IMG/VR virus record: IMGVR_UViG_3300046689_000588
Location: 1-26,876 of that record
Strand: one strand, 5' to 3'
Origin: a virus
Length of the DNA stretch: 26,876 nucleotides
This document shows positions 8,218-25,860 of the stretch, in pieces (the stretch's first letter is position 1; each line of letters begins with the position of its first letter). The translations under genes and the position numbers were made by a program. The notes beneath the pieces are model-generated. The model did not search any database, was not told where the DNA came from, and saw only the letters and a program-made list of their open reading frames with translations.

Positions 8218-8411
8218 TGCCCGGTCCGACGTCCCGGGGGACGTACATCGGGAAGAACAAGTTCGCCGGGCTGATGGCCGCGGCGGAGAAACGCGCCGCC
8301 GTCGGGTTCGATCACTTCCCGCGCTGCCGGGTCTGCTCAGCGCCGATGGTCTGCGGTCAGGAGACCTCCAACCGGGGCGCCCACTTCGTGTGCGCTCCCC
8401 CAACCACATAG
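8217..8411 (+). CDS. Small zinc-ribbon-like protein
   Basis: The product has 64 residues from the ATG at 8217, which overlaps the previous stop by one base. A longer in-frame opening from 7977 would run through two other small genes and is less likely. The C-terminal half holds C-x2-C-x5-C-x12-C (CRVC at 36-39, then C45 and C58), a possible four-cysteine metal site. The N-terminus is basic and could bind nucleic acid. No family is recognised. Confidence 0.6.
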   Translation: MPGPTSRGTYIGKNKFAGLMAAAEKRAAVGFDHFPRCRVCSAPMVCGQETSNRGAHFVCAPPTT

Positions 8412-8418
8412 GAGCCAC

Positions 8419-8790: not shown

Positions 8791-8791
8791 C

Positions 8792-9734: not shown

Positions 9735-9742
9735 AGCGCGAA

Positions 9743-9779
9743 TCTCGGCCCGGAGGTCTCCGCGATCCCCGGGCTGAGA
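9743..9779 (+). terminator. Hairpin between accessory genes, possible terminator
   Basis: TCTCGGCCCGG (9743-9753) pairs with CCGGGCTGAGA (9769-9779) with one G-U pair, giving an 11-pair stem and a 15-base loop. No T-run follows, as is common in high-GC actinobacterial terminators. It sits in the 86-base gap between the genes ending at 9734 and starting at 9821, but no promoter is seen after it, so it may attenuate rather than stop transcription. Confidence 0.4.
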
Positions 9780-9820
9780 CCGCCTCCCGCCCACTCCTAG
9801 CGAGAAAGGCCAGGAAACCC

Positions 9821-10207
9821 ATGCTCACCAAGACGTTCACGATCACCGTCCACCACGACGAGTCCCTCTTCCCCGACGAGGGAGCCCTCCACCACGCCAT
9901 CGATCACGCCCTCCGCTCCCGCCGCCACTGGTTCGGCCCGGACATCCCCGACGTGATGACGCTCACCCTCACAGAGGACGCCGAGGAGCTAACCGCCGCG
10001 AAGCAGACCGCTGACGACCTCTCCGGGATGGTCATCCGCCTCCACGACGAGAACGGCACGCTCCGCCACCTCCTCGCCGCCGCTGAAGCGGAAGTAGACC
10101 AACTGCACGGTCTACTGGAACAGGCCGACGAGTGGATCGACACCGCCACCTGCGGCGCCTGCGGCAAACCCGTCTTCCGGCCGGACACCGACAGCGCCCG
10201 CTCGTGA
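9821..10207 (+). CDS. Hypothetical protein with coiled coil and C-terminal CxxC
   Basis: The product has 128 residues from the ATG at 9821; the longer in-frame opening from 9584 overlaps the previous gene. GAGAAAGG lies upstream as a possible ribosome binding site, though spaced widely. The first 50 residues are mixed alpha/beta (TFTITVHHDESLF), followed by a coiled coil (about 55-108) and TCGACGK (about 111-117). It overlaps the next gene by 4 bases. It is not recognised. Confidence 0.62.
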   Translation: MLTKTFTITVHHDESLFPDEGALHHAIDHALRSRRHWFGPDIPDVMTLTLTEDAEELTAAKQTADDLSGMVIRLHDENGTLRHLLAAAEAEVDQLHGLLEQADEWIDTATCGACGKPVFRPDTDSARS

Positions 10208-10350
10208 AACGCCCCGTCCGCCTGACATGCCCCTGCTGCTACACCACGGAAGTCGTGGAACGCGACCGGGTAGGCGAATGGATCGAAACCCACGACTGCC
10301 CACCCGACAGCCCCCCGAAGACCTCGCGCGCCGCTCCCGATAGTGCGTAG
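10204..10350 (+). CDS. Small CPCC zinc-binding-like protein
   Basis: The product has 48 residues. CPCC (9-12) plus HDC (30-32) could bind one zinc ion (C-x2-C ... H-x-C). The tail is Pro/Ser/Ala-rich. It starts with GTG in a GTGA overlap. The size and pattern fit small actinophage zinc-finger proteins of unknown role. Confidence 0.58.
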   Translation: MKRPVRLTCPCCYTTEVVERDRVGEWIETHDCPPDSPPKTSRAAPDSA

Positions 10351-10376
10351 TCCTCTGGTCGCGCGCTCGGAGGTCG

Positions 10377-10388
10377 TACCCTTCCGGC
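10377..10388 (+). promoter_or_regulatory. Leaderless TAC-type -10 box before protease gene
   Basis: TACCCT (10377-10382) followed by exactly 6 bases to the ATG at 10389. GGAGG (10369-10373) is too far upstream (15 bases) to serve as a ribosome binding site. The same TACCCT box and spacing precede the head-tail adaptor gene at 21325. Confidence 0.5.
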
Positions 10389-12140
10389 ATGTTCAAGCTC
10401 CGGCAGACGGCCGACGGTTGGGAAGTTCTCGGGGACGCCGACGTTGTCCTGGCTTCGTTCGAGGGTGCGGCGGAGGAGGACGGCGCTCAGCGTCGGGCGT
10501 ACGCCCTCGCGGTTCAGTGGCTGGCGGACAACGCTCCGGTTCCGGCTCCGGTCGTGGAACCCGTCGAGGGTGGCCCGACTCCGGGGGAACCTCCGGCTGG
10601 GGCGCTGTCTGATCGGTGGACCGCGGCGGAGCAGGGGATCGTCGCGGCCGGACCGACCGGGGACGGGCGGGACTTCACCGGTTGCGTGTTCACGTGGCGG
10701 GCGACGGTGGCGCCGCTCCCCCTGATGCTCCTCTGTGAAACGGAGATGGGCCACTACGGCGCGGAGGTCTGCGGCTGGATCGACTCACAGGGCGATCCGA
10801 CGGTCGCGGGTGGGGTGAGCGGCTGGTTCCACGACTCCGACTGCGGGCGGCAGGCCCGGGACATCCTCGCGGCGCAGGGCGCCTACGCCGTCTCCGTCGA
10901 CCCGGGAATGGTCGAGGCGACGTTTACCTGCACGGAGGAAGACGGGGATGAGTGGGGGTCCTGGTGCGTTGATGGGGTCCTGACGTTCCAGGCGTATGAG
11001 ATCGCCGGGTTGACGATGGTGCCGTTCCCCGCGTTCGGGACAGCCGCGATCACGCTCGAAGCTCCGGTGGCGGCACCGACGATGGAACCGATGCCGGTCG
11101 AGGTCCCGCCGGGCTCCCCGGACGGTCAGGTCACGGCGGCGCTCACCGTCGCTGAGGCGCTCGCGGAAGGGCAGGGCGCCACGATGGCCGCGGATCTCCG
11201 GCCGAACGTCGTGGAGCTTCGCCCGGTCGCCGCGTCGGTAGCGGTCCGTCCTCCGGCCGCCTGGTTCGACTGGGGAGAGCCGGATGACGGCGCTGACGTG
11301 TACGTCCAGCAGAACGCTGGCGGCTCGGTAGGCGTCCCTCTCACGATCACGGATGACGGGCAGGTCTACGGGCACCTGGCGTTGTGGGAGGCGTGCCACA
11401 TCGGTATGGCCGGGGAGTGCGTCGCTCCTCCCGCGTCCGGCGCCGCGTACGCCCACTTCCATCTCGGGGTCACCCGCACCGCGGACGGCTCTGACGTCGC
11501 GACCGGGGCGCTGACCGCCGGATGTGACCACGCCGCGCTCCGCCTCCGCGCTCCCGAAGCGACCGACTGGTACGCCCACAACGGTGTCGCGTGGGCTGAC
11601 GTGCGCGCCTCGAACGGACGGCACGGCATCTGGCTTTCCGGCGCTCTCCGCCCTGACGTTACGGACGAGCAGGTTCGGGTCCTCCGGGCCGGAGCCCTCT
11701 CCGGGGACTGGCGCGACCGGGGTGGCAAGCTCGAACTCGTCGCCGCCCTCGCGGTCTCCGTGCCCGGGTTCCCGATCCTCCGGGAAGCGGTCGCCGCGTC
11801 CGCCTTGGATCTCGGGGAAGCGGTCCTCGGCTGGCAGATCGACGGCCGCCAGACGGCGCTGGTCGCGTCGGGGGTCGTACGACCGGCGGAGACCGCCCTA
11901 GAAGCCCTCGTAGCGGCCGGAACCGTGGAGGCGTGCGCCTCATGCGGCAAGCGGCTCCGGACCCGTCACACAGCCACACAGCAGCTGGACCGGGGAGACG
12001 GGCGTCGGCTCTCCGCGATCGATGGGCGCCTGGAACGGATCGAGGCGATCCTCTCGGCGCTCGACTACCGGACGCGCCCGGCCCGTCGGGAAGCAGCGCA
12101 GCAGGCGAAGGCGCGGCTCACGAAGGTCGTCGGCCGCTAA
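10389..12140 (+). CDS. Capsid maturation protease with two protease-like domains
   Basis: The product has 583 residues. Residues 94-222 resemble an HK97-type prohead protease: FTGCVFTW, HYGAEVCGWID (122-132), GVSGWFHDSD (142-151), YAVSVDPG (166-173, with S169 as possible nucleophile) and EIAGLTMVPFPAFGTAAI (204-221). A linker leads to residues 315-465 (VPLTITDDGQVYGHLALWE, YAHFHLGVTR, RHGIWLSGAL, LSGDWRDRGG, SVPGFPI), a block familiar from actinophage head maturation proteases. The C-terminus (from about 510) carries CASC and a basic helix. The enzyme would trim capsid and scaffold during prohead maturation. HK97's protease is much shorter (about 225 residues). It precedes the capsid gene, with a two-gene accessory insert between. 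Confidence 0.8.
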   Translation: MFKLRQTADGWEVLGDADVVLASFEGAAEEDGAQRRAYALAVQWLADNAPVPAPVVEPVEGGPTPGEPPAGALSDRWTAAEQGIVAAGPTGDGRDFTGCVFTWRATVAPLPLMLLCETEMGHYGAEVCGWIDSQGDPTVAGGVSGWFHDSDCGRQARDILAAQGAYAVSVDPGMVEATFTCTEEDGDEWGSWCVDGVLTFQAYEIAGLTMVPFPAFGTAAITLEAPVAAPTMEPMPVEVPPGSPDGQVTAALTVAEALAEGQGATMAADLRPNVVELRPVAASVAVRPPAAWFDWGEPDDGADVYVQQNAGGSVGVPLTITDDGQVYGHLALWEACHIGMAGECVAPPASGAAYAHFHLGVTRTADGSDVATGALTAGCDHAALRLRAPEATDWYAHNGVAWADVRASNGRHGIWLSGALRPDVTDEQVRVLRAGALSGDWRDRGGKLELVAALAVSVPGFPILREAVAASALDLGEAVLGWQIDGRQTALVASGVVRPAETALEALVAAGTVEACASCGKRLRTRHTATQQLDRGDGRRLSAIDGRLERIEAILSALDYRTRPARREAAQQAKARLTKVVGR

Positions 12141-12144
12141 GTCT

Positions 12145-12202
12145 CAGGGCCGGTCCGGCGCTTCCGTTGGTTGCCCGCCACCCATGTGTCGGGCCGGTCC
12201 TG
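12145..12202 (+). terminator. Inverted repeat after protease gene, possible terminator
   Basis: CAGGGCCGG (12145-12153) can pair with CCGGTCCTG (12194-12202) with one G-U pair, enclosing 40 bases. It starts 5 bases after the protease stop and ends 24 bases before the next promoter, a sensible place for a terminator, but the loop is long and there is no T-run. Confidence 0.3.
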
Positions 12203-12226
12203 GGAAACAAGCCTGCTCACGCCACC

Positions 12227-12261
12227 TGGACAGCTAACCGCCCTTAGGTTACGATGGGCAC
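12227..12261 (+). promoter_or_regulatory. Dyad-class leaderless promoter 3
   Basis: TGGACA (12227-12232), a 17-base spacer and TACGAT (12250-12255), then 6 bases to the ATG at 12262. The dyad is CTAACC-N7-GGTTA (12234-12251) with the GCCCTTA centre that is shared with the copy at 22212. It drives a two-gene insert between protease and capsid. Confidence 0.83.
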
Positions 12262-12465
12262 ATGACGACGTGCGGAGAATGCGGATACAACCTCCCGCAC
12301 CACGACAGCGCCTGTTCGTCGGCGCCGAAGTACGTCGCCCTCTGCCCGGCTCACGCTCCCCGTCCGGTAGCTGACCGGGGCAGCGATGACGCCCGCCTGA
12401 CCTGTAAGGCATGCCGGGCGACCGGCCAGCACGTCGGCTTGTTCTCCCTCACGGTCGTCCAGTGA
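12262..12465 (+). CDS. Zinc-knuckle-like small protein (paralogue of the protein at 9435)
   Basis: The product has 67 residues. MTTCGECGYNLPHHDSAC gives C4-x2-C7-x6-H14-x3-C18, identical in spacing to the protein at 9435. A second possible site is formed by C28, H31 and C48, C51 (LTCKACRATGQH). The ATG is fixed by the leaderless promoter. The stop overlaps the next ATG by one base. It could bind nucleic acid or act as a small adaptor; no function is known. Confidence 0.7.
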   Translation: MTTCGECGYNLPHHDSACSSAPKYVALCPAHAPRPVADRGSDDARLTCKACRATGQHVGLFSLTVVQ

Positions 12466-12650
12466 TGGCGCCGGAGCCGGACGACCGCTGGCCGTTCTGG
12501 CTTGGCGCGATCCTCGCGGCGGCCGGGTTCATCCTGACCGTCGTCCACTTCGAGGCTGGGCTCTGGTGGATCCTCCTCGCTCCGGCCGTCCTCGCGCCGC
12601 TCGTCCAGATCTTCTGGGCGGCCGGAGTCCGGCACGGCCGTTCCCGGTAG
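12465..12650 (+). CDS. Small membrane protein, two transmembrane segments
   Basis: The product has 61 residues. Two hydrophobic helices (about 10-27 and 33-53) are joined by a short loop, and the C-terminus is positive (GVRHGRSR). The ATG at 12465 overlaps the previous stop; the frame runs back to 12411 inside that gene. Together with the zinc-knuckle protein it forms a self-contained promoter-plus-two-gene insert between protease and capsid. A role at the host membrane is likely, but the exact role is unknown. Confidence 0.68.
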   Translation: MAPEPDDRWPFWLGAILAAAGFILTVVHFEAGLWWILLAPAVLAPLVQIFWAAGVRHGRSR

Positions 12651-12798
12651 GTATCCCTGCGCTCCCGTTCATCGCGCCGCTACTCTCTCGGCCCAACAGG
12701 CATCGAGTCGCCCTGACCTAGTCGGGCGGCCTGACGGCAGCCCTAGGCGTCGGCTCGGCATCCGATCGTTCCGTGATCCGCCAGGGAGGCGCACGAGC
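12651..12798 (+). promoter_or_regulatory. Leader region of capsid gene
   Basis: This 148-base gap precedes the major capsid gene. TACTCT (12681-12686) could be a -10 box, giving a leader of about 105 bases. A stem GTCGCCC (12709-12715)/GGGCGGC (12724-12730 region) with a 10-base loop lies in it. GGGAGG (about 12785-12790) is a ribosome binding site for the ATG at 12799. No dyad element and no gene are visible. Confidence 0.35.
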
Positions 12799-14484
12799 AT
12801 GTTGACGCTTGAAGAGATCCGCGAGTGGCTCGCCCGCCTGGCTGAGCTGACCGACGAGGAGCTGACCCAGCTAGACGAGTCGATCGAGGCTGTCGCCGCT
12901 GAGCTGCTCGACCAGGACGATGACGCCGCTGATACGGATGAGGCGATCCAGCTCCTCACCGAGGTCGCGGACGCCAAGGATGCCGTAGCCACGGAGAAGA
13001 CGGGCCGGGAGGAGAAGGCCGCGGAGCGTAAGGCTGCCGCTGACGCTCTCCGCCAGCGCATCCGGGGAGACGCTGAAGGCGACGAGGGTGATGAGGGTGA
13101 AGGCGACGAGGAGACTCCTCCTCCCGCTGACCCGGCCGCTCCCGCGGAGGAGAAGGCGAAGGAGCCGGTCGCCGCTACGGCGAAGCCGAGCCCGGCCACG
13201 GCCCGCCGTCCGGTCACGACCCGTCCCCGTCAGGCGGACGCTCAGCACGCCGCTTTGACCCTCGTGGCTTCGGCCAACCTGCCCGGGGTGAACATGGGCA
13301 CCCCCCTGACCGACCGGGACGTCCTCGCGAAGGCGATCATGGACACCTGGCGGGCCGGGATCGGCTACCAGGGCGGCCGCCACAACGTTCCGATCGCCTC
13401 CCTGAGCTACGACTTCCCGGAGGACCGGACGCTGGACGACAACCCGGACTCGAACGCCCGGAAGATCGACGCCGTCACGAGCCCTCAGGCGATCACGGCG
13501 GCCGGTGGTATCTGCGCTCCGGCGCCGATCCAGTACGACCTCCCCGTCATCGGGAGCACGGCCCGCCCGATCCGCGACGGTCTCCCCTCCTTCGGAGTGG
13601 CCCGCGGCGCGGTCCGGACGATCACGCCGCCCACGATCGACAACGTGGCGGGGAACACGCAGGCCGGTACCAACGTCGCAATCTGGACCGAGGCGAACGA
13701 CCAGTCCCCGTCCGCTCCCGCTACGAAGCCGTGCCTCACGATCACCTGCGGCGCCGACACGACCACCGCCGTCGACGCGATTACCCAGTGCATCCAGACG
13801 GGCAACTTCCGGGATCGCTATTTCCAGGAGTCCGTCCAGGCGTGGCTCACCCTGAACGACGTCTGGGCTGCCCGGGTCAAGGAGCAGAACCTCCTCGCGA
13901 AGATCGCCGCCGGGTCCGTGACGTACACGGCCGGTACGGTCCTCGGGACCGCCCGCGACATGATCGCCGCGATCCAGCGGCACATCGCGACGATCCAGTA
14001 CTGGTGGCGGCTGGACGACTCGATCCGCTTCCGGCTCCTCCTCCCCCGGTGGTTGCAGGAGAACATCGCGGTCGATCTCGCCCGGGAGCAGCCCGGCGCG
14101 ACCGCTGAGCGTCTCCTCACCGACGACTCGTTCGTGAACCAGATCTTCTCGAACATGGGCTGCAACGTGACGTGGCTCATGGAAGGCGAATCGTCCCAGC
14201 GGTTCGTCCGCCCGAACGCTGGTCAGATCGAGCCGTGGCCGTCGCACGTCTTCGCCTACATCTTCCTCGAAGGCGCCTGGCTCTACCTGAACGGCGGGAC
14301 GCTCAACCTGGGCGTCGTCCGGGACTCGACCCTGAACGCTACGAACAACTTCCAGATGTTCCAGGAGGAGTTCGAGCAGGCGCACTTCCACGGCACGTTC
14401 TCCCACAAGCTCGACATCGACATCTGCCCGTCGGGCGCGACGTCCCTGCCGATCGCCGTGTCGGTCTGCACATCCGGCTCCTGA
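12799..14484 (+). CDS. HK97-fold major capsid protein with N-terminal scaffold-like domain
   Basis: The product has 561 residues. Residues 1-105 are acidic, helical and coiled-coil-like, with a very acidic run at about 91-105; 106-145 is a Pro/Ala-rich linker. This layout is that of a scaffold or delta domain that the protease removes. From about 150 to the end is the shell-forming capsid part, with the N-arm (ASANLPGVNMG), a long middle domain, the spine-helix region (TARDMIAAIQRHIATIQ) and C-terminal beta segments (ATNNFQMFQEEFEQAHF). Position after the protease and before other head genes supports the call. The start has GGGAGG upstream. Identification is by architecture and context. Confidence 0.83.
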   Translation: MLTLEEIREWLARLAELTDEELTQLDESIEAVAAELLDQDDDAADTDEAIQLLTEVADAKDAVATEKTGREEKAAERKAAADALRQRIRGDAEGDEGDEGEGDEETPPPADPAAPAEEKAKEPVAATAKPSPATARRPVTTRPRQADAQHAALTLVASANLPGVNMGTPLTDRDVLAKAIMDTWRAGIGYQGGRHNVPIASLSYDFPEDRTLDDNPDSNARKIDAVTSPQAITAAGGICAPAPIQYDLPVIGSTARPIRDGLPSFGVARGAVRTITPPTIDNVAGNTQAGTNVAIWTEANDQSPSAPATKPCLTITCGADTTTAVDAITQCIQTGNFRDRYFQESVQAWLTLNDVWAARVKEQNLLAKIAAGSVTYTAGTVLGTARDMIAAIQRHIATIQYWWRLDDSIRFRLLLPRWLQENIAVDLAREQPGATAERLLTDDSFVNQIFSNMGCNVTWLMEGESSQRFVRPNAGQIEPWPSHVFAYIFLEGAWLYLNGGTLNLGVVRDSTLNATNNFQMFQEEFEQAHFHGTFSHKLDIDICPSGATSLPIAVSVCTSGS

Positions 14485-14490
14485 TCCGTC

Positions 14491-14502
14491 TACCGTCCAC
14501 TT
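14491..14502 (+). promoter_or_regulatory. TAC-type -10 box after capsid gene
   Basis: TACCGT (14491-14496) followed by exactly 6 bases to a GTG at 14503 that opens a 26-codon frame. No -35 box is recognised. It is the same geometry as the boxes at 7301, 10377 and 21313. Confidence 0.42.
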
Positions 14503-14583
14503 GTGGGCGGCCGGGCCGTTCTCCATGTGCGGTGCCCGGTCCGGTCGTCCACGCAGATCGAAGCTGAGGAGGAGCCAGGGTGA
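14503..14583 (+). CDS. Possible 26-residue leaderless peptide coupled to the next gene
   Basis: GTG at 14503 opens a frame of 26 codons whose TGA (14581-14583) overlaps the GTG of the next gene in the usual GTGA manner. The GTG is exactly 6 bases after TACCGT. The peptide (MGGRAVLHVRC..., ending EAEEEPG) has no recognised feature, and its last codons overlap the GAGGAGGAG ribosome binding site of the next gene. It may be a leader peptide that couples translation, or a chance opening. Confidence 0.3.
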   Translation: MGGRAVLHVRCPVRSSTQIEAEEEPG

Positions 14584-15434
14584 CCGTTGCCGAAACCATT
14601 GACGCATTCGCCCCGCCGCTCTCCCGGTTCTCCGCCCTGAACGCCCTCCCCGTCACCGACGACGATGACGCCCGCTGGCTTCTCGGGTTCCGGTTCCGGC
14701 CGGAGTCGTGCGCCTCGAACAACGGTGGCATCCTCGCGGCGGACTGCTTCGGGAAGACCTCCGCGATGTCGACCCACGCCGTTCAGACCCAGCAGGACGG
14801 GACCGGGTTCATCATCTACTGGCGGGACGACTGTTCCGTCTTCGGGTACGAGGCGTCCGACTACGAAGGCCGGGCGCGCCGCGGTCTCGCGTCGGTGGCG
14901 TCGTACCAGTTCGCGTTGGAGCTTCAGGCCGGAGCGATCACCGGTCCCGCCGGGAGCGCGTCCGTGGCTGAGCCGAACACGCCCCTGGCTGACGCCTCCG
15001 CCACGATCGTGACCGCTGCGCCATCTACACCCCTGAACGGTCTCGCCTGCCTAGAGAACGCCCTAGCGAAGAACACGAAGAACCGCCGCGGGTTCATCTT
15101 CATGCGCCCCCAGATCCTCGTGCTCCTCGCGTCGGCGTACGCGATCCAGTTGCAGGGCAACACGTGGTTGACGCCGATGGGCAACATCGTCGTTCCCGAC
15201 GGCGCGTTCACCGGAGCGAACCCGTCCGGCGCGGCGCTCTCCTCGAACCAGTTCATGTACGCGACGTCGTGGATGGAGGTCCGCCGGGGAAGCGTCCTCG
15301 TGACCGGAGGTCTCGGCACCCAGATCGACCGCTCCGTGAACACGGTCACGACGTACGCGATGCAGCCCTACATGTGGCAGTGGGATGGCTGTTTCCTCGG
15401 GGCCGCCGAACTCAACGTCGCAGTCTGCGGATAG
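14580..15434 (+). CDS. Probable second head (capsid-type) structural protein
   Basis: The product has 284 residues. It begins with a segment LLGFRFRPESCASNNGG and continues with CFGKTSAMSTHAVQTQ and DDCSVFGYEASDYEGRARRGLASVASYQFALELQAG (about 80-117), then KNTKNRRGFIFMRPQILVLL, and ends with FMYATSWMEVRRGSVLVTGG. These blocks resemble a family of actinophage head proteins encoded next to the major capsid gene, some named minor or pentamer capsid proteins. The exact role is not certain. GTG start with a strong GAGGAGGAG ribosome binding site, so it is probably made in quantity. Confidence 0.6.
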   Translation: MTVAETIDAFAPPLSRFSALNALPVTDDDDARWLLGFRFRPESCASNNGGILAADCFGKTSAMSTHAVQTQQDGTGFIIYWRDDCSVFGYEASDYEGRARRGLASVASYQFALELQAGAITGPAGSASVAEPNTPLADASATIVTAAPSTPLNGLACLENALAKNTKNRRGFIFMRPQILVLLASAYAIQLQGNTWLTPMGNIVVPDGAFTGANPSGAALSSNQFMYATSWMEVRRGSVLVTGGLGTQIDRSVNTVTTYAMQPYMWQWDGCFLGAAELNVAVCG

Positions 15435-15441
15435 GAGCACG

Positions 15442-15795
15442 ATGACGACCGCACGCCTAGGGAACACCGCACCGCATCAAGGGCGGAAGGACGAGAACGG
15501 CGAGCCCGTCCTCGATGACAACGGGCAGAGAGCTTTCTTCCCGATCGAGCTGGACGCCCCCACCGAGGTTCTCGTGTCGCTCTCCCCGCAGGACACGCTG
15601 ATGGAGCAGTTCCGGGCGATCGAGGATCTCTGGCGCTACCACTCCTCCGCTCCTCCGTCGTGGGTCTGGTCTGACAGCGCGGCGCTTCAAGGGCTCCTCG
15701 CGGAGCAGTTCCACGCTCCGGCCGGGCTCCCCGACGACGTAGAGGCGACCCACTACACGCACTCCGGTCCTCCCGGGTCCGGCGGGGAAGGCTGA
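15442..15795 (+). CDS. Hypothetical protein in head gene block
   Basis: The product has 117 residues from the ATG at 15442, with AGGAG upstream; the longer in-frame opening from 15385 overlaps the previous gene. It is acidic, with a central PPSWVWSDSAALQGLLAEQF segment (about 71-90) that recurs in hypothetical proteins of actinophage head regions. No enzyme motif is present. It may be a small virion or assembly protein. Confidence 0.65.
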   Translation: MTTARLGNTAPHQGRKDENGEPVLDDNGQRAFFPIELDAPTEVLVSLSPQDTLMEQFRAIEDLWRYHSSAPPSWVWSDSAALQGLLAEQFHAPAGLPDDVEATHYTHSGPPGSGGEG

Positions 15796-15798
15796 GCG

Positions 15799-16431
15799 AT
15801 GACGAAGGTCAACTCGGGCAACGACATGCAGTCCCGCCAGATGGCCGGGCAGCAGGCCGGGTTCGCCGGTACGTCCACCGGCACATCCGCGACGACGCTC
15901 ACGGACTCCGGGCAGGCGTGGGGCACCACCCAGTTCGTCGGCGCGTGGGTCGTGGCCGGAGGCGCAACAGGCGTCTACGGGGTCATCATCTCCCACACCG
16001 CTACCGTTCTCACCGTAGACCGGTGGACCGCCGTAGCGACCCCGGGAGGCGCCGCAGGATCGACTCCCGGCGCGACCGCGGCGTACTGCATCCTTCCCGG
16101 CGCCGCACCAGCCTGGTACATGGCGCTCACCGCCAACGCGGCGGCCGTCAACGCGACGGACACGACCCTGACCGCGGAGATCACGACCGTCGGTGGCGGC
16201 CTGATCCGGAAGCTCGCCACGTACGCCCACACCGCGGCCGCCGCGTCCTACACGCTGACGGGCGCGTTCACGTCGAACGGCACGGACTCTCTCCCGGTCA
16301 CCGTCGCGAAGATCGGCATCTTCAACGGGCTCCTCTCCGGCCAGATGATCTTCGAGACGCTCCTCGGTTCCACCGCGACGCTCACGACCTCCGGCGACAA
16401 CGTCACCGTGACGGACACGGTCAGTCTGTAA
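15799..16431 (+). CDS. Putative virion structural protein, appendage/fibre-like
   Basis: The product has 210 residues, rich in Thr, Ala, Gly and Val with alternating beta pattern throughout. The second half (LTAEITTVGGGLIRKLATYAHT..., KIGIFNGLLSGQMIFETLL, then VTVTDTVSL) resembles a beta-sandwich repeated in phage tail or appendage proteins. Start with GAAGG upstream, stop followed by the next ATG after 3 bases. It probably forms part of a tail-side or surface structure; no more can be said. Confidence 0.62.
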   Translation: MTKVNSGNDMQSRQMAGQQAGFAGTSTGTSATTLTDSGQAWGTTQFVGAWVVAGGATGVYGVIISHTATVLTVDRWTAVATPGGAAGSTPGATAAYCILPGAAPAWYMALTANAAAVNATDTTLTAEITTVGGGLIRKLATYAHTAAAASYTLTGAFTSNGTDSLPVTVAKIGIFNGLLSGQMIFETLLGSTATLTTSGDNVTVTDTVSL

Positions 16432-16434
16432 CCG

Positions 16435-17109
16435 ATGCCTGACGCCAAGATCACCGCGCTGACGGCGCTGACCGGAGCGAACCTCGCGGACGGGGACATG
16501 TTCGTCGTCGTGGACGTCTCTGACACGACGATGGCGGCGAGCGGCACCGACAAGAACATCACTCCGGCGGACCTGTTCACCTACCTGAACGGCCGGGTCC
16601 AAGTCGCGGGTGGTTCGGTCTCTACTCCCGGCGCGGGGTTCGCGTCGGACACCTACCTGGCCGGGTCCGGGCTCCTCATCCCGAACGGCCGCCTGAAGGC
16701 GCAGACCATCTACCGGTGCGCGTTCGACGTCTCGAAGACCGGAGCGGGGACCGCGACGCCGATCATCAATGTGCGGTTCGGGACCGCGGGGACGACCGCG
16801 GACACGTCCCGGGGGACGCTCACGTTCGCGGCTCAGACCGCGGTGGTCGACGCGGGCATGTTCGAGATCGCGTGCATCTTCCGTACCGTCGGGTCCGGCA
16901 CCGCGGCGGTCCTCCAATCGCGGGGCATTCTCTCCCACGGTCTCTCGATCACCGGTCTCGGGACGGACGTCTCCGGCGTGAAGGTCGCGACGTCGTCCGG
17001 GTTTGACTCGACCCCGAACGCGAGCATCATCGGTCTCTCGGTGAACGGTGGCGCCTCGGCCGCCTGGACGATCACTCTGGTCGAGGCTGAACTTCTCAAC
17101 CTGGGTTAG
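16435..17109 (+). CDS. Tail fibre-like structural protein
   Basis: The product has 224 residues. The N-terminal KITALTALTGANLADGDMF (about 5-23), followed by VVVDVSDTTMAASGTDKNIT and ADLFTYL, is a pattern common to phage tail fibre or appendage proteins. The rest is beta-rich (RGTLTFAAQTAVVDAGMFEI, GLSITGLGTDVSGVKV, WTITLVEAELL) and would form a sandwich. It starts 3 bases after the previous stop without its own strong ribosome binding site, so it is likely coupled. Confidence 0.7.
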   Translation: MPDAKITALTALTGANLADGDMFVVVDVSDTTMAASGTDKNITPADLFTYLNGRVQVAGGSVSTPGAGFASDTYLAGSGLLIPNGRLKAQTIYRCAFDVSKTGAGTATPIINVRFGTAGTTADTSRGTLTFAAQTAVVDAGMFEIACIFRTVGSGTAAVLQSRGILSHGLSITGLGTDVSGVKVATSSGFDSTPNASIIGLSVNGGASAAWTITLVEAELLNLG

Positions 17110-17121
17110 CGGGGAGCCGAG

Positions 17122-17361
17122 ATGGCCTCCCTGCCGTTCACCGCCGTGGCCGACGGCACCGTCACCGTCCTGCGGGCCAACTTGGCTGATACCGGATGGG
17201 TCCGCATCTTCCACGCTGACAACTCGGTGGGCGCCTGGACACCGATCACGGCTCCGACGACTGTCGTGCCGGTCCTCGCCGGTGACCTCGTCGTCCAGCG
17301 GCTCAACCGCAACGGCACCGCCTTGCTCGTGTTCATGATCATCAGCGCGGTCACTCCGTGA
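17122..17361 (+). CDS. Small beta-rich structural-region protein
   Basis: The product has 79 residues of mainly beta pattern (FTAVADGTVTVLRANLADTG, WTPITAPTTVVPVLAGDLVV). It is not recognised. GGGGAG lies 7 bases before the ATG. The stop overlaps the next GTG by 4 bases. Its size and place suggest a small virion component attached to the fibre-like proteins. Confidence 0.65.
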   Translation: MASLPFTAVADGTVTVLRANLADTGWVRIFHADNSVGAWTPITAPTTVVPVLAGDLVVQRLNRNGTALLVFMIISAVTP

Positions 17362-20111
17362 CGATCACCGGCACCGCGTTCGGTGGCAACGAGGTCAACG
17401 CCGGGAACGTCGACCTCAACCCGGGCTCTCTCACGTCGGCGGCCGGGGACCGCATCGTCGTCGCCTACACCTGGTACGACCTCACCGGGTCGGTCACGCA
17501 GACGGCCGGACGGATCACGTCGACCCCGGCGAAGACGTTCACGAAGGATACTGAGTTCCTCCAGACCGTCTCCGGCGCCCATCTGGGTGTCGCCATCTTC
17601 TCGTGGGTGTCGGACGGCACGACGCTGACTCAGATCAACGTCAACCCGGACGCCTCCGGGGGTGGTATCGGGTCGGTCGGCGGGAGCGTCGTGCGGATCG
17701 TGTCGACGGTCGGGACCGTCACGTACGACTCGACCACGGTCGGGACCGGGACCGACTCGACTTCGACGCTGGACTGGTCAGCCGGAGGAGCGGTCAACGG
17801 GGCCCAGATCGGGGTTTACGCCATCGGGCTTGACAACGGTGCGTCGGGAACGTGGACGGCGTCATCGGGCTACACCGCCATGCACAGCTTCGGGAACGGC
17901 GCCGGAAGTCTCTGCAACCACGAAGCGTTCAAGGTCAACGAGACCGGCACGCCCGCCCTGTCCGTTGCCTACAACACGACGATCACCTCAGCGATCGAGC
18001 TGTTCGTCTCCTACCAGGAGCCCGCACCGGCCGGGTACACCGGCCCTGGCGTCGTGCGGTTGGAGGACAACTCCGAGATCCTCGAAGAGGTCGGGAATCC
18101 ACCGACGTTCGTCGCGGTCGGGACGGATCACCCGGGCACGACGACCCCGATCAACGTCGTGGTTCCCTCCGGTCTCGCGGGCGACTTCCTCCTCCTCTTC
18201 TGGGAGTCGGACACACCCGGGGACGTCGCCGCGGCGTCCGGGTACACCGCCGGGCTGAACGGCACCTACAACGGGTTCGCCGGTAACACCCGCGCGTTCG
18301 GGTTCCTCTACAAGTTCGACAACACGACCGGCGGAGGCACCCAGCTCGTTACCGGCCTAACGGGTGGCGGTGCGTTCGCTGAAGAGTTCATCCAGCGGTA
18401 CCGGGGCGTCGATCCGAACAACCCGATCAACGTCTCCAACCTGGATTCAACGACGAACACGTCGAGCAACATCACGACCTCCCGGCCGGACACCGTCGAG
18501 GTCGGCGCGATCACCGACGATCAGGGACTACCTAACACTCCTCCGGCGGGTGGATGGACCGGGCGCCTGACGTCGGCCGCTGCGAACTTCTGGTCCGGTG
18601 ACCGGGTCCAGACCCCGACGGGGCAGACCGGGGTAACGACCGGGTGGCCGTCCACGTCCGGAGGTATCGACAGCGGCATCATCCACCTCTCCCTGAACGG
18701 GGTGCCGTCCACCGTCCTCTCTCCGCTCCATCTCGTTCTCGAAGCCGGAGTGGAGGGAAGCTGGACCGGGTCCGGGACAGCTCTGACGGAGGCTGGCTTC
18801 CAGGTTCAGCTCGAAGACGGCTCCTCGAAGATCGTGTTCGAGGCGACGGACCTCACCGCGCTCGTTCAGGAGCAGGGCCGCTACTGGCTTTCCGAAGCCG
18901 GTGACCATGTCCTCCTCGAATCCGCCGGAGGAGGCGGCAGCAACACCCGGAACGTCACGGACACCGCGGCGGGGACGGACGCGGTCTCGCGGGTCGTTTC
19001 CCTCTCCCGGTCCGTCTCTGACGCGGCCAATGGGTCTGATGCGGTCTCGCGGACCTCCGCCCGGGCTCGGCCGATCACGGACACCGCGGCGGGGACGGAC
19101 ACCGCGACCCGGGCCGCGCTCACGTTCAACCGGGCCATCGCGGACGCCGCGAACGGCTCTGATGCGGTCGCGCGGGTCGTTTCTGATACCCGGGCGGTCT
19201 CCGACGCCGCGAACGGGACGGACGTGGCGGTCGGGATGCGGGTGTACGGCCGGAGCGTCACCGACGCGGCGAACGGGACGGACGCGGTCTCCCGGGGAGC
19301 GCTCTCCTTCGCCCGCCCGATCACGGACCTCGCGAACGGCTCCGACGTCGTCTCGCGGACCTCCGCCCGCTCCCGCGCTATCGCGGACGCCGCGAACGGC
19401 TCCGATGCGGTCTCTAGAAGCCTGTCTCTGCCCCGTACAGCCTCGGACGTAGGTTCCGGGACGGACACCGCTTCCCGGGGCGCACAGACCTTCCTACGGG
19501 GCGGAGCGGACGCCGCGAACGGTACCGACGCGGCTACGACCGGAGGAGGAGGAGGACCGCGCTCCGTCACGGACGCCGCGAACGGCTCCGACAGCGTCAC
19601 CCGCATCGCGTCCCATCCCCGCTCGATAGCGGACACGGCCGCCGGGACGGACGCCGTCACCCGGACCGCCGGGCATCCCCGCTCGATCACGGAGACGGCG
19701 AACGGGACTGATGTCGCCTCGCGCGCCGCTCAGAGCTTCGGGCGGCCCACGTCTGACGCCGCGAACGGGACGGACACGGTCACCCGGATCGACACGACGA
19801 CCCGGGCGGTCTCCGATACCGGCGGAGGGACCGACACGACGACCCGGACCGTGGGCCGCTTCCGCACGATCATCGACATCGGAGGAGGCACCGACGTAGC
19901 GACCCGGGCCGCGCAGACGTTCCTCCGTCCGGTCTTCGACATCGCGTCGGGGATCGACGTCGCCACCGCGACCGGCACCGGAGTCCTAACCGCCCATTTC
20001 AGCGGCCCGCGTCGTAGCATCCGGAGAGACCCGGAGCGGATCTCCGTCCGGCTCGACGCTCTACGCCTGTCCCTCCGCGCTGATGACCGGCGCCTCTCGA
20101 AGAAGGTCTGA
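17358..20111 (+). CDS. Large fibre-like protein with 17 tandem C-terminal repeats
   Basis: The product has 917 residues. Residues 1-220 and about 240-450 look like two related beta-sandwich domains, each with a surface-protein pattern (ending in, for example, IELFVSYQEPAP and IIHLSLNG). A region of short LEDNSEILEE-type segments appears at about 235 and again, altered, at 485-520 (VQLEDGSSKIVFE). Residues 532-874 hold 17 repeats of 20-21 residues with core D-A-A-N-G-T/S-D-A-V-S-R. A basic tail ends the protein. Such architecture suits an adhesin or minor tail protein that spans a distance or binds the host. GTG start in a GTGA overlap. Confidence 0.72.
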   Translation: MTITGTAFGGNEVNAGNVDLNPGSLTSAAGDRIVVAYTWYDLTGSVTQTAGRITSTPAKTFTKDTEFLQTVSGAHLGVAIFSWVSDGTTLTQINVNPDASGGGIGSVGGSVVRIVSTVGTVTYDSTTVGTGTDSTSTLDWSAGGAVNGAQIGVYAIGLDNGASGTWTASSGYTAMHSFGNGAGSLCNHEAFKVNETGTPALSVAYNTTITSAIELFVSYQEPAPAGYTGPGVVRLEDNSEILEEVGNPPTFVAVGTDHPGTTTPINVVVPSGLAGDFLLLFWESDTPGDVAAASGYTAGLNGTYNGFAGNTRAFGFLYKFDNTTGGGTQLVTGLTGGGAFAEEFIQRYRGVDPNNPINVSNLDSTTNTSSNITTSRPDTVEVGAITDDQGLPNTPPAGGWTGRLTSAAANFWSGDRVQTPTGQTGVTTGWPSTSGGIDSGIIHLSLNGVPSTVLSPLHLVLEAGVEGSWTGSGTALTEAGFQVQLEDGSSKIVFEATDLTALVQEQGRYWLSEAGDHVLLESAGGGGSNTRNVTDTAAGTDAVSRVVSLSRSVSDAANGSDAVSRTSARARPITDTAAGTDTATRAALTFNRAIADAANGSDAVARVVSDTRAVSDAANGTDVAVGMRVYGRSVTDAANGTDAVSRGALSFARPITDLANGSDVVSRTSARSRAIADAANGSDAVSRSLSLPRTASDVGSGTDTASRGAQTFLRGGADAANGTDAATTGGGGGPRSVTDAANGSDSVTRIASHPRSIADTAAGTDAVTRTAGHPRSITETANGTDVASRAAQSFGRPTSDAANGTDTVTRIDTTTRAVSDTGGGTDTTTRTVGRFRTIIDIGGGTDVATRAAQTFLRPVFDIASGIDVATATGTGVLTAHFSGPRRSIRRDPERISVRLDALRLSLRADDRRLSKKV
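18951..19980 (+). repeat. 17 tandem in-frame coding repeats of 60-63 bases
   Basis: The units encode a repeat of the form [ST]-[VI]-[STA]-D-x-A-x-G-[TS]-D-x-x-x-R-x(4-6)-R. Best conserved are the D-x3-G-x-D core and the R that ends each unit. Units differ in synonymous and variable positions, so the array is old or has diverged under selection. The 60/63-base length keeps the frame. Copy-number change by recombination would alter protein length without breaking it. Confidence 0.88.
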
Positions 20112-20509: not shown

Positions 20510-21181
20510 ATGGTGGCCGCGAACCCGACCTGTCTCCCGCAGCTCTTCGCCTGCGCCATGCGCGTGTCGCAGCTCGACGCGAACGGACTGCTACTCGTCG
20601 GCGCCTCCTCGTCGTACGTCTCCGGGTCGTTCACCCAGGTTCAGGTGTCCCCCCAGTACGAAGACGGGGACGAGTTCAAGCAGAAGAACGCCTGCGGGAC
20701 CATCGCCTACGACGTGAAGGCTCCTCCGTCGTACGTCCGTTCGGACCTTCAGATCACGCTCACGACCCCGGACCCACAGCTGATGCAGCTCCTCGGCGCC
20801 GGACCGGTCGTGAACATCGTCGCTGACGGCCGGGTAGGCGGCTCGTCCCCGTCGATCGGCGTCGTCGGCCAGGCCAACCAGAACGGAGTCTCGATCGAGG
20901 TCTGGGCGAAGAACTACCGGAACAACTCGCTCGCCAGCCCCTACCCGTACGCCTGGTGGGTATTCCCGAAGGTCACGAACCTGAAGGTCGGCCAGTTCAA
21001 CCAGGAGAACGGCCCGAACCTCCCGGTCATCACCGGCGAGGCGTACGAGAACGTCAACTGGTACAACGGCCCCGCGAACGACTGGCCCACCGCGAACGCC
21101 CCCACCCAGTCGTGGCAGTGGATCCCGTCGAACACGATCCCGACGATCACCTGCGGCTACGTCAACGTCGCCACGACCTAG
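20510..21181 (+). CDS. Major tail (tube) protein
   Basis: The product has 223 residues. The segments FTQVQVSPQYEDGDEFKQKN (about 41-60), GTIAYDVKAPPSYVRSDLQI and TLTTPDPQLMQLLGAG match the core of actinophage major tail proteins, which stack as rings to form the tail tube. The C-terminal part, with NWYNGPANDWP and IPTITCGYV, looks like a further strand set. A very strong ribosome binding site and an own promoter-like box fit an abundant protein. The gene is followed by a stable structured region and then the head-tail adaptor, not by tail chaperones. Confidence 0.8.
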   Translation: MVAANPTCLPQLFACAMRVSQLDANGLLLVGASSSYVSGSFTQVQVSPQYEDGDEFKQKNACGTIAYDVKAPPSYVRSDLQITLTTPDPQLMQLLGAGPVVNIVADGRVGGSSPSIGVVGQANQNGVSIEVWAKNYRNNSLASPYPYAWWVFPKVTNLKVGQFNQENGPNLPVITGEAYENVNWYNGPANDWPTANAPTQSWQWIPSNTIPTITCGYVNVATT

Positions 21182-21324: not shown

Positions 21325-22194
21325 ATGACAGCCGTCTCGTACGACCTCTGTTCCCCCTGGGCGACTCCCTCCGATGTCGGCGGGGACTGCTGCGCCGGAA
21401 CGGTCGACCCGGCGCTGATGGACGACGCTCTCGCCGGAGCGTCCCTGATCCTCTACAACCTGACCGGGAAGCAGTGGCCCGGGCTCTGCACCGACGTGAT
21501 CCGCCCCACCGCGGAACACGCGCCGGATCTCCTCCGCCCGGGCTGGGTTCCGTATGGCGGCTACTCCGGGCCGTGGGCCGGAGGGAGCGGCTCCTACGCC
21601 TACGGCTACAACTTCTGGGCCGGGATGTGGGGCGCCTGCACCTGTAACCGGACGACGGTCTGCGGACTCCACGCCGTCTCCGAGATCGTCCTTCCCGGCT
21701 ACCCGGTCGCCGCGATCACGACGGTGAAGATCGACGGGGTCACGCGCGCTCCGGCCGGGTACAAGATCCAGGACCGCCAGCGTCTCGTCTACGTCCCGCA
21801 GGCTTCGGACACCGCGGCCGGATGGCCGTGCTGCCAATCCGTCGAGCTTCCCTCCACCGCCGTCGGGACGTGGGAGGTCACCTACACGTGGGGTGCGGCT
21901 CCTCCCGCGATCGGCGCCCGGTTCGCCGCCACGCTCGCCTGCCAGCTCTATAAGACGATCGCGCCGGACGACGCCTCCCGCGAAGGGTGCCGTCTCCCGC
22001 AGCGGATCACGTCCATCACCCGCCAGGGGGTCACCCTCGCGGTCCTCGATTCGTTCCAGGTGTTCAAGGACGGCCTGACCGGACTCCCGGAGATCGACCT
22101 GTGGATCTCCTCCGACCGGCGCGCCCGTACCGGAGCCCACGCCGACGTCATCACCCCCGGCATGGTCGCGTCCCTCCGCAGAGATCAGCCCTAA
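21325..22194 (+). CDS. Head-to-tail adaptor (connector) protein
   Basis: The product has 289 residues. The first third is helical with a Gly/Tyr-rich loop and clustered cysteines (GACTCNRTTVCG, about 106-117). The core VSEIVLPGYPVAAITTVKIDG (about 121-141), YKIQDRQRLVYVP, WPCCQS, GTWEVTYTWGAAPP, and CRLPQRITSITRQGVTLAVLD match the actinophage head-tail adaptor pattern that fits beneath the portal ring. It usually lies between capsid and major tail genes; here it comes after the major tail gene. The start is set by the leaderless box. Confidence 0.75.
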   Translation: MTAVSYDLCSPWATPSDVGGDCCAGTVDPALMDDALAGASLILYNLTGKQWPGLCTDVIRPTAEHAPDLLRPGWVPYGGYSGPWAGGSGSYAYGYNFWAGMWGACTCNRTTVCGLHAVSEIVLPGYPVAAITTVKIDGVTRAPAGYKIQDRQRLVYVPQASDTAAGWPCCQSVELPSTAVGTWEVTYTWGAAPPAIGARFAATLACQLYKTIAPDDASREGCRLPQRITSITRQGVTLAVLDSFQVFKDGLTGLPEIDLWISSDRRARTGAHADVITPGMVASLRRDQP

Positions 22195-22246: not shown

Positions 22247-23128
22247 ATGACGACACGGACCGACGCCCACTCCCCGACGAACCTCACCACCGAGGACTAC
22301 AGCTACCTCTACGCCGCCGACCTCGACTCCCCCTGGGCTCTCCGGCTGAACGAGACCGAAGACGGCCAGGCGTTCCTCCGGGTCCTCTCCAACCTCGATC
22401 CCGCCACCGCCGACCGCGGCTACGGCCAATGCCACCACTGCGGCGCCTGGATCCGCTACGCCGCCTGGCTCCGCCACGACCCGACCGGCTACACGATCGT
22501 GGTCGGGGAAACCTGCCTCGACAACCGGTTCGGCCGGGCGACCGCCGACTTCCAGCAGCTCCGGAAGGCCGCCCAGCTCGACCGGCTGGCCCAGCGCCTC
22601 CTCGCCGCCTACAACGAGTTCCTCTCCGGTCTAGACCCGGTCGGGCGTGCGCTCCTCTGCTCGGACGCCGAGTTCGAGACCATCGACGCCGACGAGTACG
22701 TCACGGCCGCCCGCACTAACAGCTTCGTCTCGGACGTCCGCCGCCGGGTCCGGCAGTACGGGAACGGCTCTGAGCGCCAAGTCGCCGCCGTCATCGGGGT
22801 CGTGGCGAAGGCTCGGGAGCGGGCAGCCAAGGACGCCGCCGAGGCGGAGGAGATCACCATCCCCGTCCCCGAAGGCCGCTACCAGATCACCGGAGAAGTC
22901 CTCTCCACCAAGTGGGTCGACTCGGACTACGGCTCCACGCTGAAGATGCTGGTCAAGGTCGACACCCTCAACGGGGTCTACCGGATCTTCGGTTCCGTCC
23001 CGTCCGCTCTCACCGTCGAGCGCGGCGACAACGTCACGTTCACAGCGACCGTCGAGCGGTCCGCTAAGGACGAGTCCTTCGGCTTCTTCAAGCGGCCCAC
23101 CAAGGCCACGCTCCTAGAGACCGTCTGA
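22247..23128 (+). CDS. Zinc-finger and OB-fold-like protein
   Basis: The product has 293 residues. Residues 60-95 hold CHHCGAWIRY (C62, C65) with later H77 and C90 (VVGETCLDNRF), a likely zinc site. A helical middle (100-200) leads to a beta-rich end (205-293: GRYQITGEVLSTKWVDSDYG, STLKMLVKVDTLNGVYRIFG, and a GDNVTFTATVERS strand) that looks like an OB-fold. The combination points to nucleic-acid binding, perhaps a single-strand-binding or replication-associated protein; similar proteins occur in actinophages without proven function. It is the only gene between this dyad promoter and the glycosylation pair. Confidence 0.65.
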   Translation: MTTRTDAHSPTNLTTEDYSYLYAADLDSPWALRLNETEDGQAFLRVLSNLDPATADRGYGQCHHCGAWIRYAAWLRHDPTGYTIVVGETCLDNRFGRATADFQQLRKAAQLDRLAQRLLAAYNEFLSGLDPVGRALLCSDAEFETIDADEYVTAARTNSFVSDVRRRVRQYGNGSERQVAAVIGVVAKARERAAKDAAEAEEITIPVPEGRYQITGEVLSTKWVDSDYGSTLKMLVKVDTLNGVYRIFGSVPSALTVERGDNVTFTATVERSAKDESFGFFKRPTKATLLETV

Positions 23129-23167: not shown

Positions 23168-24814
23168 ATGGCCCGCACCGTCCCGTACGTCGGCAACTTC
23201 CGCGCTCCCCACTCGACGGAGAACCACGTCCGGGAGGCGCTCATCACTCTCGGGATGAACGTCATCCCGATCCAGGAGGACGACACCGCGGCGTGGGACG
23301 CCAAGGGTGCCGTCGACGCGCTGGCGGAGTACGACCCGGAGTTCGCTCTCTGGACGCACACGTACGGGCTGGCGCCGGAGCGCGGAACGAACTGGGTGAA
23401 GCATTGGCGTGAGCGTGACGTCACGACGGTCGGCTACCACCTAGACCGGTGGATCGGCCTGGAACGGGAATCGTCCCTCGGGCACGAGCCGTTCTTCGGT
23501 CAGGATCTCCTCGTCACCGCCGACGGTGGGCACGCCCAGGCGTGGCAGGACCGGGGAATGACTCACGTCTGGATGCCGCCCGGAGTCGCCCGCTCCGAAG
23601 CGGAACGCGAAGGCGTGTTCCGGGAGGAGTTCGACTACGACGTCGTGTTCGTCGGCTCCTGGCAGAACTACCACCCGGATGACTGGCCCTACCGGCGGCA
23701 GCTCATCGAGCGGCTCCTCGATCGCTACCCGGGTCGGTTCCGTCCGTTCTGTTGCAACTTCCGGGGTCAGGATCTAGCGGACCTCTACGCCACGGCCCGG
23801 GTTGTGGTCGGGGATTCCTGCCTCGCTGGGAGCCCGGCGAACTACTGGTCGGATCGCATCCCGGAGACGCTCGGCCGGGGAGGTTTCCTCATCCACCCGG
23901 ACGTGGACGGGCTCCGCGACTGGTACTCCCCGGAGGAGCTGACCACCTATCCGCTCTGGGACTTCGACGCGCTGTTCGTGGAGATCGAGAAGGCGCTCGC
24001 CAACGAGATCGACCGCCGGAAGGTAGCGGCCGCCGGACGGGCGCGCGTCCTCTCCCGGGACCTGTACGAGCACCGAATGGAATCCGTCCGCAAGCTTGTA
24101 GCGGCGCGCGGGGATCTCTCCGACTGGGTCGGGCCGCTGACCCTCGGGAACCAAGGCGTCGTCGGCAACTTCGAGGTCCGCCGGGCCGGGGACGGCATCG
24201 TGTTCGAGGAGACGTGGCGGCAGAACCAGTACGGCTTCCTCCGGGAGGAGATGATCGGCCGGACCGTGCTCGATATCGGCGCGAACGTCGGGGACTTCTC
24301 CATCTGGGCCGCGCTCGCGGGAGCGAAGCAGGTTTGGGCGTATGAGCCGGACCCCCGGAACTTGGAGGAGCTGCGCGCCAACCTCGCGATGAACCCGCGC
24401 GCCGGAGCGGTCGTAGTCGTCGCGGAAGCGGTCTGGGCTCAGAGCGGAGAGGTCTGGATCACGAACGAGCAGGGCTCCGTGAAGGTTGTCGAACCTCCGG
24501 AGGATCTAACAGGGCCGGAGAGGTCCGTCACGGCCCGCCACGTAGACGAAGCGCTCGCCCGGGCTGGGGTAGGGCTCTTCGTCAAGATCGACTGTGAGGG
24601 ATGCGAATACGACCTGTTCGAGGCGGTCTCCTCCGGGCAGCTCCGCCGGGCCGATCGGATCGTGATGGAGTGGCACTCCGGAGCCGGGTTCGGCGGAGAC
24701 CGGACGGAGGACTGGGGACGGATGCTCGCCGTCCTCGCGGCCGACGGGAAAGTGGAGGCGCTCGGACAACCGAAGATGGGCGGCCTGATCCACTGGCGCC
24801 GGTACGGAGCATGA
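23168..24814 (+). CDS. Glycosyltransferase (CgeB-like) fused to FkbM-type methyltransferase
   Basis: The product has 548 residues. Residues 1-315 are a GT-B glycosyltransferase of the CgeB-like/group 1 kind: NFRAPHSTENHVREAL (N-terminal loop), DYDVVFVGSWQNYHP (156-170), ANYWSDRIPETLGRGGFLIHP (224-244) and a C-terminal helix. Residues 345-548 are an FkbM-type SAM methyltransferase: TVLDIGANVGDFS (366-378), WAYEPDPRNLEELRANL (390-406) and FVKIDCEGCEYDLFEA (471-486). FkbM enzymes commonly O-methylate sugars. The fusion could add and then methylate a sugar on DNA, virion protein or host glycan. The start has a leaderless box; ATGA overlap with the next glycosyltransferase. Confidence 0.85.
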   Translation: MARTVPYVGNFRAPHSTENHVREALITLGMNVIPIQEDDTAAWDAKGAVDALAEYDPEFALWTHTYGLAPERGTNWVKHWRERDVTTVGYHLDRWIGLERESSLGHEPFFGQDLLVTADGGHAQAWQDRGMTHVWMPPGVARSEAEREGVFREEFDYDVVFVGSWQNYHPDDWPYRRQLIERLLDRYPGRFRPFCCNFRGQDLADLYATARVVVGDSCLAGSPANYWSDRIPETLGRGGFLIHPDVDGLRDWYSPEELTTYPLWDFDALFVEIEKALANEIDRRKVAAAGRARVLSRDLYEHRMESVRKLVAARGDLSDWVGPLTLGNQGVVGNFEVRRAGDGIVFEETWRQNQYGFLREEMIGRTVLDIGANVGDFSIWAALAGAKQVWAYEPDPRNLEELRANLAMNPRAGAVVVVAEAVWAQSGEVWITNEQGSVKVVEPPEDLTGPERSVTARHVDEALARAGVGLFVKIDCEGCEYDLFEAVSSGQLRRADRIVMEWHSGAGFGGDRTEDWGRMLAVLAADGKVEALGQPKMGGLIHWRRYGA

Positions 24815-25860
24815 GAATCGGGATCATCGCCCGGGGAGAGGACCGGGGCATCGGCATCCAGACGTGGGAAGCAGCCCGGCATCTCGACCCGGCCGCGCTC
24901 CTCTGCGTCGGGATGGGCGTCTACGGGCAGGGCTTCCCGAACCACTGGGAACGCTTCGACGGGTTCCACCAGTTCCACGTCGAATGGGGCCGCGACTACA
25001 CGTTCGACCTCCCCACCGTCCACGCGTTCCTCGACTTCGTTGACGTCATCTACCTAGTCGAGACCGCCTACTACCCGGAGGTCTACACGCTCGCCGCCGA
25101 GCACAACGTCGCGACGGTCGTTCACACGAACCCGGAGCTGCACCGGACGGAGGAGGCGACGTCCGCGACGCAGGTCTGGCTCCCGACGCCCTGGCGCGCT
25201 GAGGAGGTCGCCTGGTTCACCGGAGGACCCCCACCCGTCCTCGTGCCCTACCCGGTCGCGATCGAACGGTGGCCGTACCCGAACGGGCTCTATGAGTCGC
25301 CGCCGCTCCGCGTCGTTCACGTCGCCGGGCATCAGGCTTACGCCGACCGGAACGGCACCAAGCTCGTCGCCGCCACGATGGCCCACCTCGACCCGGGGCT
25401 CGTGGAGGTCACCGTCATCTCGCAGGACCCGAACCCGGCTCTAGGACCGGGCGCGCTCCGGATGGACGCCACAGCGAACTACTGGGATCTCTACGACAGC
25501 TTCCACGCTCTCGTGATGCCCCGCCGCTTCGGAGGTCTCTGCCTCCCCATCCAGGAAGCGAAAGCGGCCGGACTCGCCGTCGTCGCGCTCGACGTCTCCC
25601 CCGGGGACTACTACGAAGTCCTCGGCGTCCAATCCTCCCCGGGCTCCCACTTCGATACCGGCTCCGGCCGGGTCCCGATCGCGAACGCTGACCCGGTCCA
25701 GATCGCCGCCGCGCTCTCCTACCTGGCTCTTCACCCTGACGTCGTCCGCCAGCAGCAGCGCCGCTCGCGCCGCTGGGCGGAGATCCACTCCTGGGACGCT
25801 CTAGTCGGCGGCTGGCGGAAAGAACTAGAGAACGCCTGGTCACGACGGGTGGACAGCTAA
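24811..25860 (+). CDS. Group 1 (GT4-like) glycosyltransferase
   Basis: The product has 349 residues from the ATG at 24811, which overlaps the previous stop (ATGA); the frame extends further upstream within that gene. The N-terminal domain has a Gly-rich loop (ARGEDRGIGIQTWEA, 7-21), and the C-terminal domain has VVHVAGHQAYADRNGTKLV (168-186), VTVISQDPN, and ANYWDLYDSFHALVMPRRFG with GLCLPIQEAKAAGLAVVAL (242-260), the nucleotide-sugar binding signature of GT-B group 1 enzymes. It works beside the glycosyltransferase-methyltransferase fusion, likely on the same glycan. Its last codons and stop (VDS, TAA) are encoded by the next promoter element. Confidence 0.85.
   Translation: MRIGIIARGEDRGIGIQTWEAARHLDPAALLCVGMGVYGQGFPNHWERFDGFHQFHVEWGRDYTFDLPTVHAFLDFVDVIYLVETAYYPEVYTLAAEHNVATVVHTNPELHRTEEATSATQVWLPTPWRAEEVAWFTGGPPPVLVPYPVAIERWPYPNGLYESPPLRVVHVAGHQAYADRNGTKLVAATMAHLDPGLVEVTVISQDPNPALGPGALRMDATANYWDLYDSFHALVMPRRFGGLCLPIQEAKAAGLAVVALDVSPGDYYEVLGVQSSPGSHFDTGSGRVPIANADPVQIAAALSYLALHPDVVRQQQRRSRRWAEIHSWDALVGGWRKELENAWSRRVDS

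Follow-up and report, generated by a model that had tools for sequence, protein, structure and literature searches.

In the window, by which we mean the whole 26,876-base stretch of virus record IMGVR_UViG_3300046689_000588, genes for terminase C-terminus, DNA methyltransferase, portal, protease, major capsid protein (MCP), phrog_779 protein (p779), major tail protein and head-tail adaptor follow one another in that order, and 3' of them lie an open reading frame that joins a predicted glycosyltransferase to an FkbM methyltransferase and a second predicted glycosyltransferase gene (Table 1). The first-pass annotation had placed this pair after the tail tube and adaptor genes, which is right, with one 293-aa gene in between; no match to the 293-aa protein was found in the relative G003, where the cassette formed by the pair and its neighbours does not include it. 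The best isolate relative of the MCP is that of Arthrobacter phage Atuin (35% identity), more distant relatives occur in Streptomyces, Gordonia, Microbacterium and Mycobacterium phages, and the uncultivated phages that bear the cassette probably infect soil actinobacteria, their host not being established as a mycobacterium. Elsewhere in the window, a predicted DNA methyltransferase (4060-4728; phrog_24333, 4.5e-11), which is without a Pfam match, lies 5' of the portal gene, and a 917-aa Thr/Ser-rich repeat protein (17358-20111) lies between the capsid and tail genes. The latter contains about 14 cores ([AGNS][NGS]G[ST]D) of an imperfect repeat of 20-21 residues and is a possible fibre or acceptor protein.

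Table 1. Features of the window that bear on the predicted glycosylation cassette
Feature	Position	Strand	Basis
Major capsid protein, possible glycan acceptor	12799..14484	+	phrog_777, 1.6e-64
Major tail protein	20510..21181	+	phrog_792, 1.3e-16
Head-tail adaptor, structural gene 5' of the cassette	21325..22194	+	phrog_783, 8.5e-49
293-aa protein between adaptor and fusion	22247..23128	+	phrog_4265 and phrog_4750, unknown function
Predicted glycosyltransferase-FkbM fusion, 548 aa	23168..24814	+	PF13524 and PF05050/TIGR01444 in one frame
Predicted GT-B glycosyltransferase half, residues 1-317	23168..24118	+	PF13524 at 23759-24085; model; PDB fold matches
Predicted FkbM methyltransferase domain, residues 369-523	24272..24736	+	PF05050, TIGR01444; motifs DIGANVGDFS and KIDCEGCEY
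Predicted second glycosyltransferase, 349 aa, GT4-type GT-B fold	24811..25860	+	Fold matches; begins in ATGA overlap with fusion

The domain composition of the fusion, proposed earlier as a glycosyltransferase with a full FkbM domain, was borne out by profile matches that all exceed the curated cut-offs: PF13524 (residues 198-306; 48.1 bits against a cut-off of 25), PF05050 (residues 369-523; 50.2 bits against 22.7) and TIGR01444 (91.7 bits against 37.7, 5.5e-26). The label "CgeB-like" is a loose name for the PF13524 family. The predicted model of the glycosyltransferase half has a GT-B fold with PDB matches to 2.8e-11, and an alignment of 12 homologues revealed the invariant motifs HSTENH, HLDRW, TADG, GDSC and SDR. 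The model of the methyltransferase half is of low confidence; the FkbM domain is predicted to act as an O-methyltransferase on a sugar or similar hydroxyl.

The neighbouring gene begins within the fusion's last codons in an ATGA start/stop overlap, which confirms the 4-base overlap reported before. Its product falls below the cut-off of PF13692 (22.6 bits against 27), while its homologue in locus L088 passes it (35.1 bits), and the predicted model (pLDDT 85.7) matches GT4-type GT-B enzymes such as PimA and MshA (E 1e-10 to 1e-12). The homologue and the GT4-like fold together support the assignment as a second glycosyltransferase. The GC3 of both genes (0.86-0.87) is like that of other window genes. 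No homologue of the second glycosyltransferase was found in isolate phages, and neither this protein alone nor the adaptor gave matches when used as a query against viral contigs.

The distribution of the cassette was examined by two alignment-based scans of viral contigs with the cassette glycosyltransferase, which yielded 13 and then 36 loci; together with the window, the 36 loci formed 33 non-redundant groups at 90% identity. Flanks of 8 kb were fetched and were truncated where contigs are small, which makes absences weak evidence, and the 33 loci are related sequences whose counts are not independent events. At 30 of these 33 loci, structural genes of the virion lie upstream of the glycosyltransferase, on its strand and no more than 8 kb away, in keeping with the arrangement looked for in a virion glycosylation cassette (glycosyltransferase and methyltransferase genes inside the structural module); four loci (L101, L118, L127 and L128) have structural genes downstream as well. 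The flanks of L115 and L132 yielded no structural gene, and the upstream side of L122 is cut off. The major head protein next to the cassette is of the window's phrog_777 type in some loci and of the phrog_10 type in others, and the insertion points differ likewise (after the MCP, between MCP and p779, after p779, or after the adaptor): the adaptor is the usual upstream neighbour in relatives, and in several the cassette lies directly 3' of the MCP.

An FkbM gene and a homologue of the second glycosyltransferase are each present in 26/33 non-redundant loci, a GT47/RXYLT1-like gene in 18/33, and a PF04464-like gene, of a family known from teichoic acid synthesis, in 16/33. Fusion of glycosyltransferase and FkbM domain occurs in 6/33, including the window; the fused homologues are L081/L102, L082/L124, L083/L120 (G003), L101 and L135. 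Since most relatives have this larger cassette (GT47-like, second glycosyltransferase, PF04464-like) and the window ends 1.0 kb 3' of the second glycosyltransferase, the proposal of a short glycan made by two enzymes may be an understatement. Individual loci show further content: in L091 a phosphoadenosine phosphosulfate reductase gene (5317-6045; phrog_424) lies inside the cassette between glycosyltransferase and FkbM, and in L089, a lower-GC contig, three consecutive GT2-type glycosyltransferase genes (3867-5995) precede the cassette on its 5' side. We found no account of this cassette in the literature searched.

Conservation of the pair was assessed in the relative G003, which spans about 54.8 kb and is probably a complete genome because it carries a 127-bp terminal repeat. 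Here the adaptor is followed directly by the fusion and the second glycosyltransferase and then by a PF04464-like gene. Both enzymes are about 40% identical to those of the window over their full length, and the MCPs of the two phages are only 42% identical, which indicates that the pair has been retained over a long time, beyond what chance would explain. In the same region (L083 3860-3900), no ATG, GTG or TTG is present at the expected start of the second glycosyltransferase; a rare start or a frameshift is possible.

Taken as a whole, these observations make it probable that the pair is the core of a virion glycosylation cassette, predicted to make an O-methylated glycan on what is probably a head or neck protein. 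Soluble GT-B enzymes would draw on nucleotide sugars of the host and assemble a short glycan on such a protein in the cytoplasm, with sugar transfer to the structural protein taking place during assembly, and the FkbM domain would O-methylate a hydroxyl of a glycan sugar, probably of the sugar handled by its fused glycosyltransferase; the cassette enzymes examined are without membrane segments. In this scheme we infer the catalysis, the acceptor protein, the identity of the sugar, the methyl position and the order of steps, and the benefit may be, for example, shielding of the virion or an altered virion surface. That the cassette sits among structural genes favours an acceptor in the head or neck. 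The reading is well supported by predicted domains and folds, by location, by the pairing of glycosyltransferase with FkbM, and by precedent in Corndog and Che8. Thus the earlier suggestion of virion decoration by a methyl-bearing glycan is strengthened by neighbourhood, pairing and precedent.

The precedents are instructive for both their likeness and their difference. In Corndog, an O-methyltransferase and glycosyltransferases lie between portal and protease, and modification of the capsid with methyl groups and glycan has been proposed (PMC4351075); glycosylated virion proteins are reported for Che8, Corndog and Myrna (PMC12363180). Like the cassette, gp35-38 of Corndog and gp33-36 of Firecracker (cluster O mycobacteriophages) combine a methyltransferase and glycosyltransferases within the head gene module; unlike it, they use a TylF-type methyltransferase and GT-A/GT25-type transferases encoded by separate genes. 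In the cluster F mycobacteriophage Che8, whose capsid is reported to be glycosylated, gp108 of the gp108-110 group is itself a glycosyltransferase-methyltransferase fusion, and a fusion of this kind is therefore not new as an idea; however, gp108 joins GT2 and TylF domains rather than PF13524 and FkbM, and gp108-110 lie at the right genome end rather than among head genes. Profiles of the three cassette parts gave no significant match to the Che8 and Corndog enzymes, and the Pfam families differ, so membership in those enzyme families was rejected. The cassette probably works like Corndog gp35-38 and Che8 gp108-110 with unrelated enzymes. If this is true, capsid glycosylation with methylated sugars has a second form, built from unrelated enzymes and spread over many uncultivated phages whose capsids are of at least two types; until now, reports of glycosylated virion proteins have been limited to a few mycobacteriophages. 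A bolder version, which we consider improbable, is that an undescribed and widespread pathway of GT-B enzymes, FkbM and often a PF04464 teichoic-acid-type transferase coats the capsid with a methylated phosphoglycan resembling the host cell wall.

Modification of phage DNA was weighed against evidence from beyond the window's edge. Contig G001 (locus L079) is 99.98% identical to window positions 1-18698, reaches 18.4 kb further upstream, and at 10662-12340 encodes a TET-associated glycosyltransferase (TAGT; PF20691, 3.5e-43) beside a class I methyltransferase. The end of the TAGT gene and window position 1 are 6.9 kb apart in the same phage, with the gene on the upstream side, and in T-even phages the TAGT family acts on DNA bases (PMC13390438); because of this upstream gene, the window phage may be able to glycosylate its own DNA as well. 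The TAGT and the cassette both involve phage sugar transferases, but the TAGT is of a different family and target and is unlinked to the cassette. It was absent from G003, from ten other cassette-bearing virus records and from Dryad, being found only in G001, the window's phage; the cassette is thus independent of the TAGT, as G003, with its terminal repeat, has the one without the other, and DNA as the main target was lowered for that reason.

The statement that no base-hypermodification genes are seen in the window is literally true, the one DNA methyltransferase being the phrog match described above, yet a TAGT lies upstream in the same phage. Likewise, the view that DNA is the less likely target agrees with G003, and has to be set against this predicted DNA-base glycosyltransferase. 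A search for PF00303 found none; a Tet_JBP search also gave no matches, but its controls were equally silent. FkbM and GT4-type families usually act on glycan sugars rather than DNA. Hence, despite the TAGT and its adjoining methyltransferase, it is very unlikely that the cassette enzymes themselves modify phage DNA by base glycosylation and methylation.

The relationship between fused and split forms was examined in two trees. In the tree of FkbM domains, the fused domains from four phages group together, apart from a clade of stand-alone cassette methyltransferases, so a fusion arising as a simple join with the neighbouring stand-alone methyltransferase is not supported; this is tentative, given the long branches and a sampling biased by use of the window's own motif to retrieve the outside sequences. 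In the glycosyltransferase tree the six fusions are not monophyletic but interspersed with split forms, at least two changes being forced by well-supported branches. Locus L103 has an FkbM of the fused type as an independent, adjacent gene. The repeated pairing of glycosyltransferase and FkbM, to which Streptomyces phages and a Streptomyces plasmid add further cases, suggests that the methyltransferase acts on the product of the glycosyltransferase.

This pairing extends to isolated phages. Homologues of the cassette glycosyltransferase occur in nine Streptomyces phages, and in all four examined an FkbM gene follows at a distance of two genes. Dryad, Lizz, Yara and Wentworth have, as in the window, a PF13524 glycosyltransferase (about 30% identity to the window's) together with FkbM; unlike in the window, the two are separate genes (in Lizz with a gene annotated as nucleotidyl transferase between them), the second glycosyltransferase was not found there, and the genes lie 3' of an endolysin and a fibre-like gene instead of capsid genes. 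Because these isolates carry the split form, the reading of virion glycosylation is testable at the bench. Their arrangement also counts against a head or neck target: the split pair follows a gene of 1200-1440 aa 3' of the endolysin, with BppL_N repeats in Dryad, and the window has its own Thr/Ser-rich 917-aa protein, as if the glycan decorated a tail fibre or other adsorption protein. We regard this as quite unlikely, as in most relatives the cassette follows the MCP, p779 or the adaptor, and neither G003 nor isolate phages yielded a homologue of the 917-aa protein. The absence from G003 also led us to drop this protein as an obligatory acceptor.

A plasmid form speaks for a functional link between the enzymes but against the virion reading. 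In Streptomyces sp. WZ-12 (NZ_CP118575.1), homologues of the second glycosyltransferase, the glycosyltransferase and the fusion-type FkbM are three adjacent genes which, in contrast to the window, are separate, in another order and in a mobile-element-rich region with no virion genes nearby. This trio, together with the PF04464-like enzymes of 16/33 cassettes, would fit enzymes that alter host cell-surface glycans during infection, for superinfection exclusion or envelope change. Such a role is unlikely, given that the cassette sits inside the structural gene module, that the enzymes examined have no membrane segment, and that no membrane partner was noticed in passing. It is extremely unlikely that the genes are horizontally acquired metabolic genes without a virion role, kept by chance or for a small-molecule product: morons do occur in phage genomes and one Streptomyces plasmid copy sits among transposases, but the full-length genes have long been conserved at about 40% identity, and their location has been conserved too. 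A further plasmid homologue of the cassette glycosyltransferase (43% identity to that of L092) is present at L100 11989-17117 on Streptomyces violaceusniger plasmid pSTRVI02, with a methyltransferase and two other glycosyltransferases nearby.
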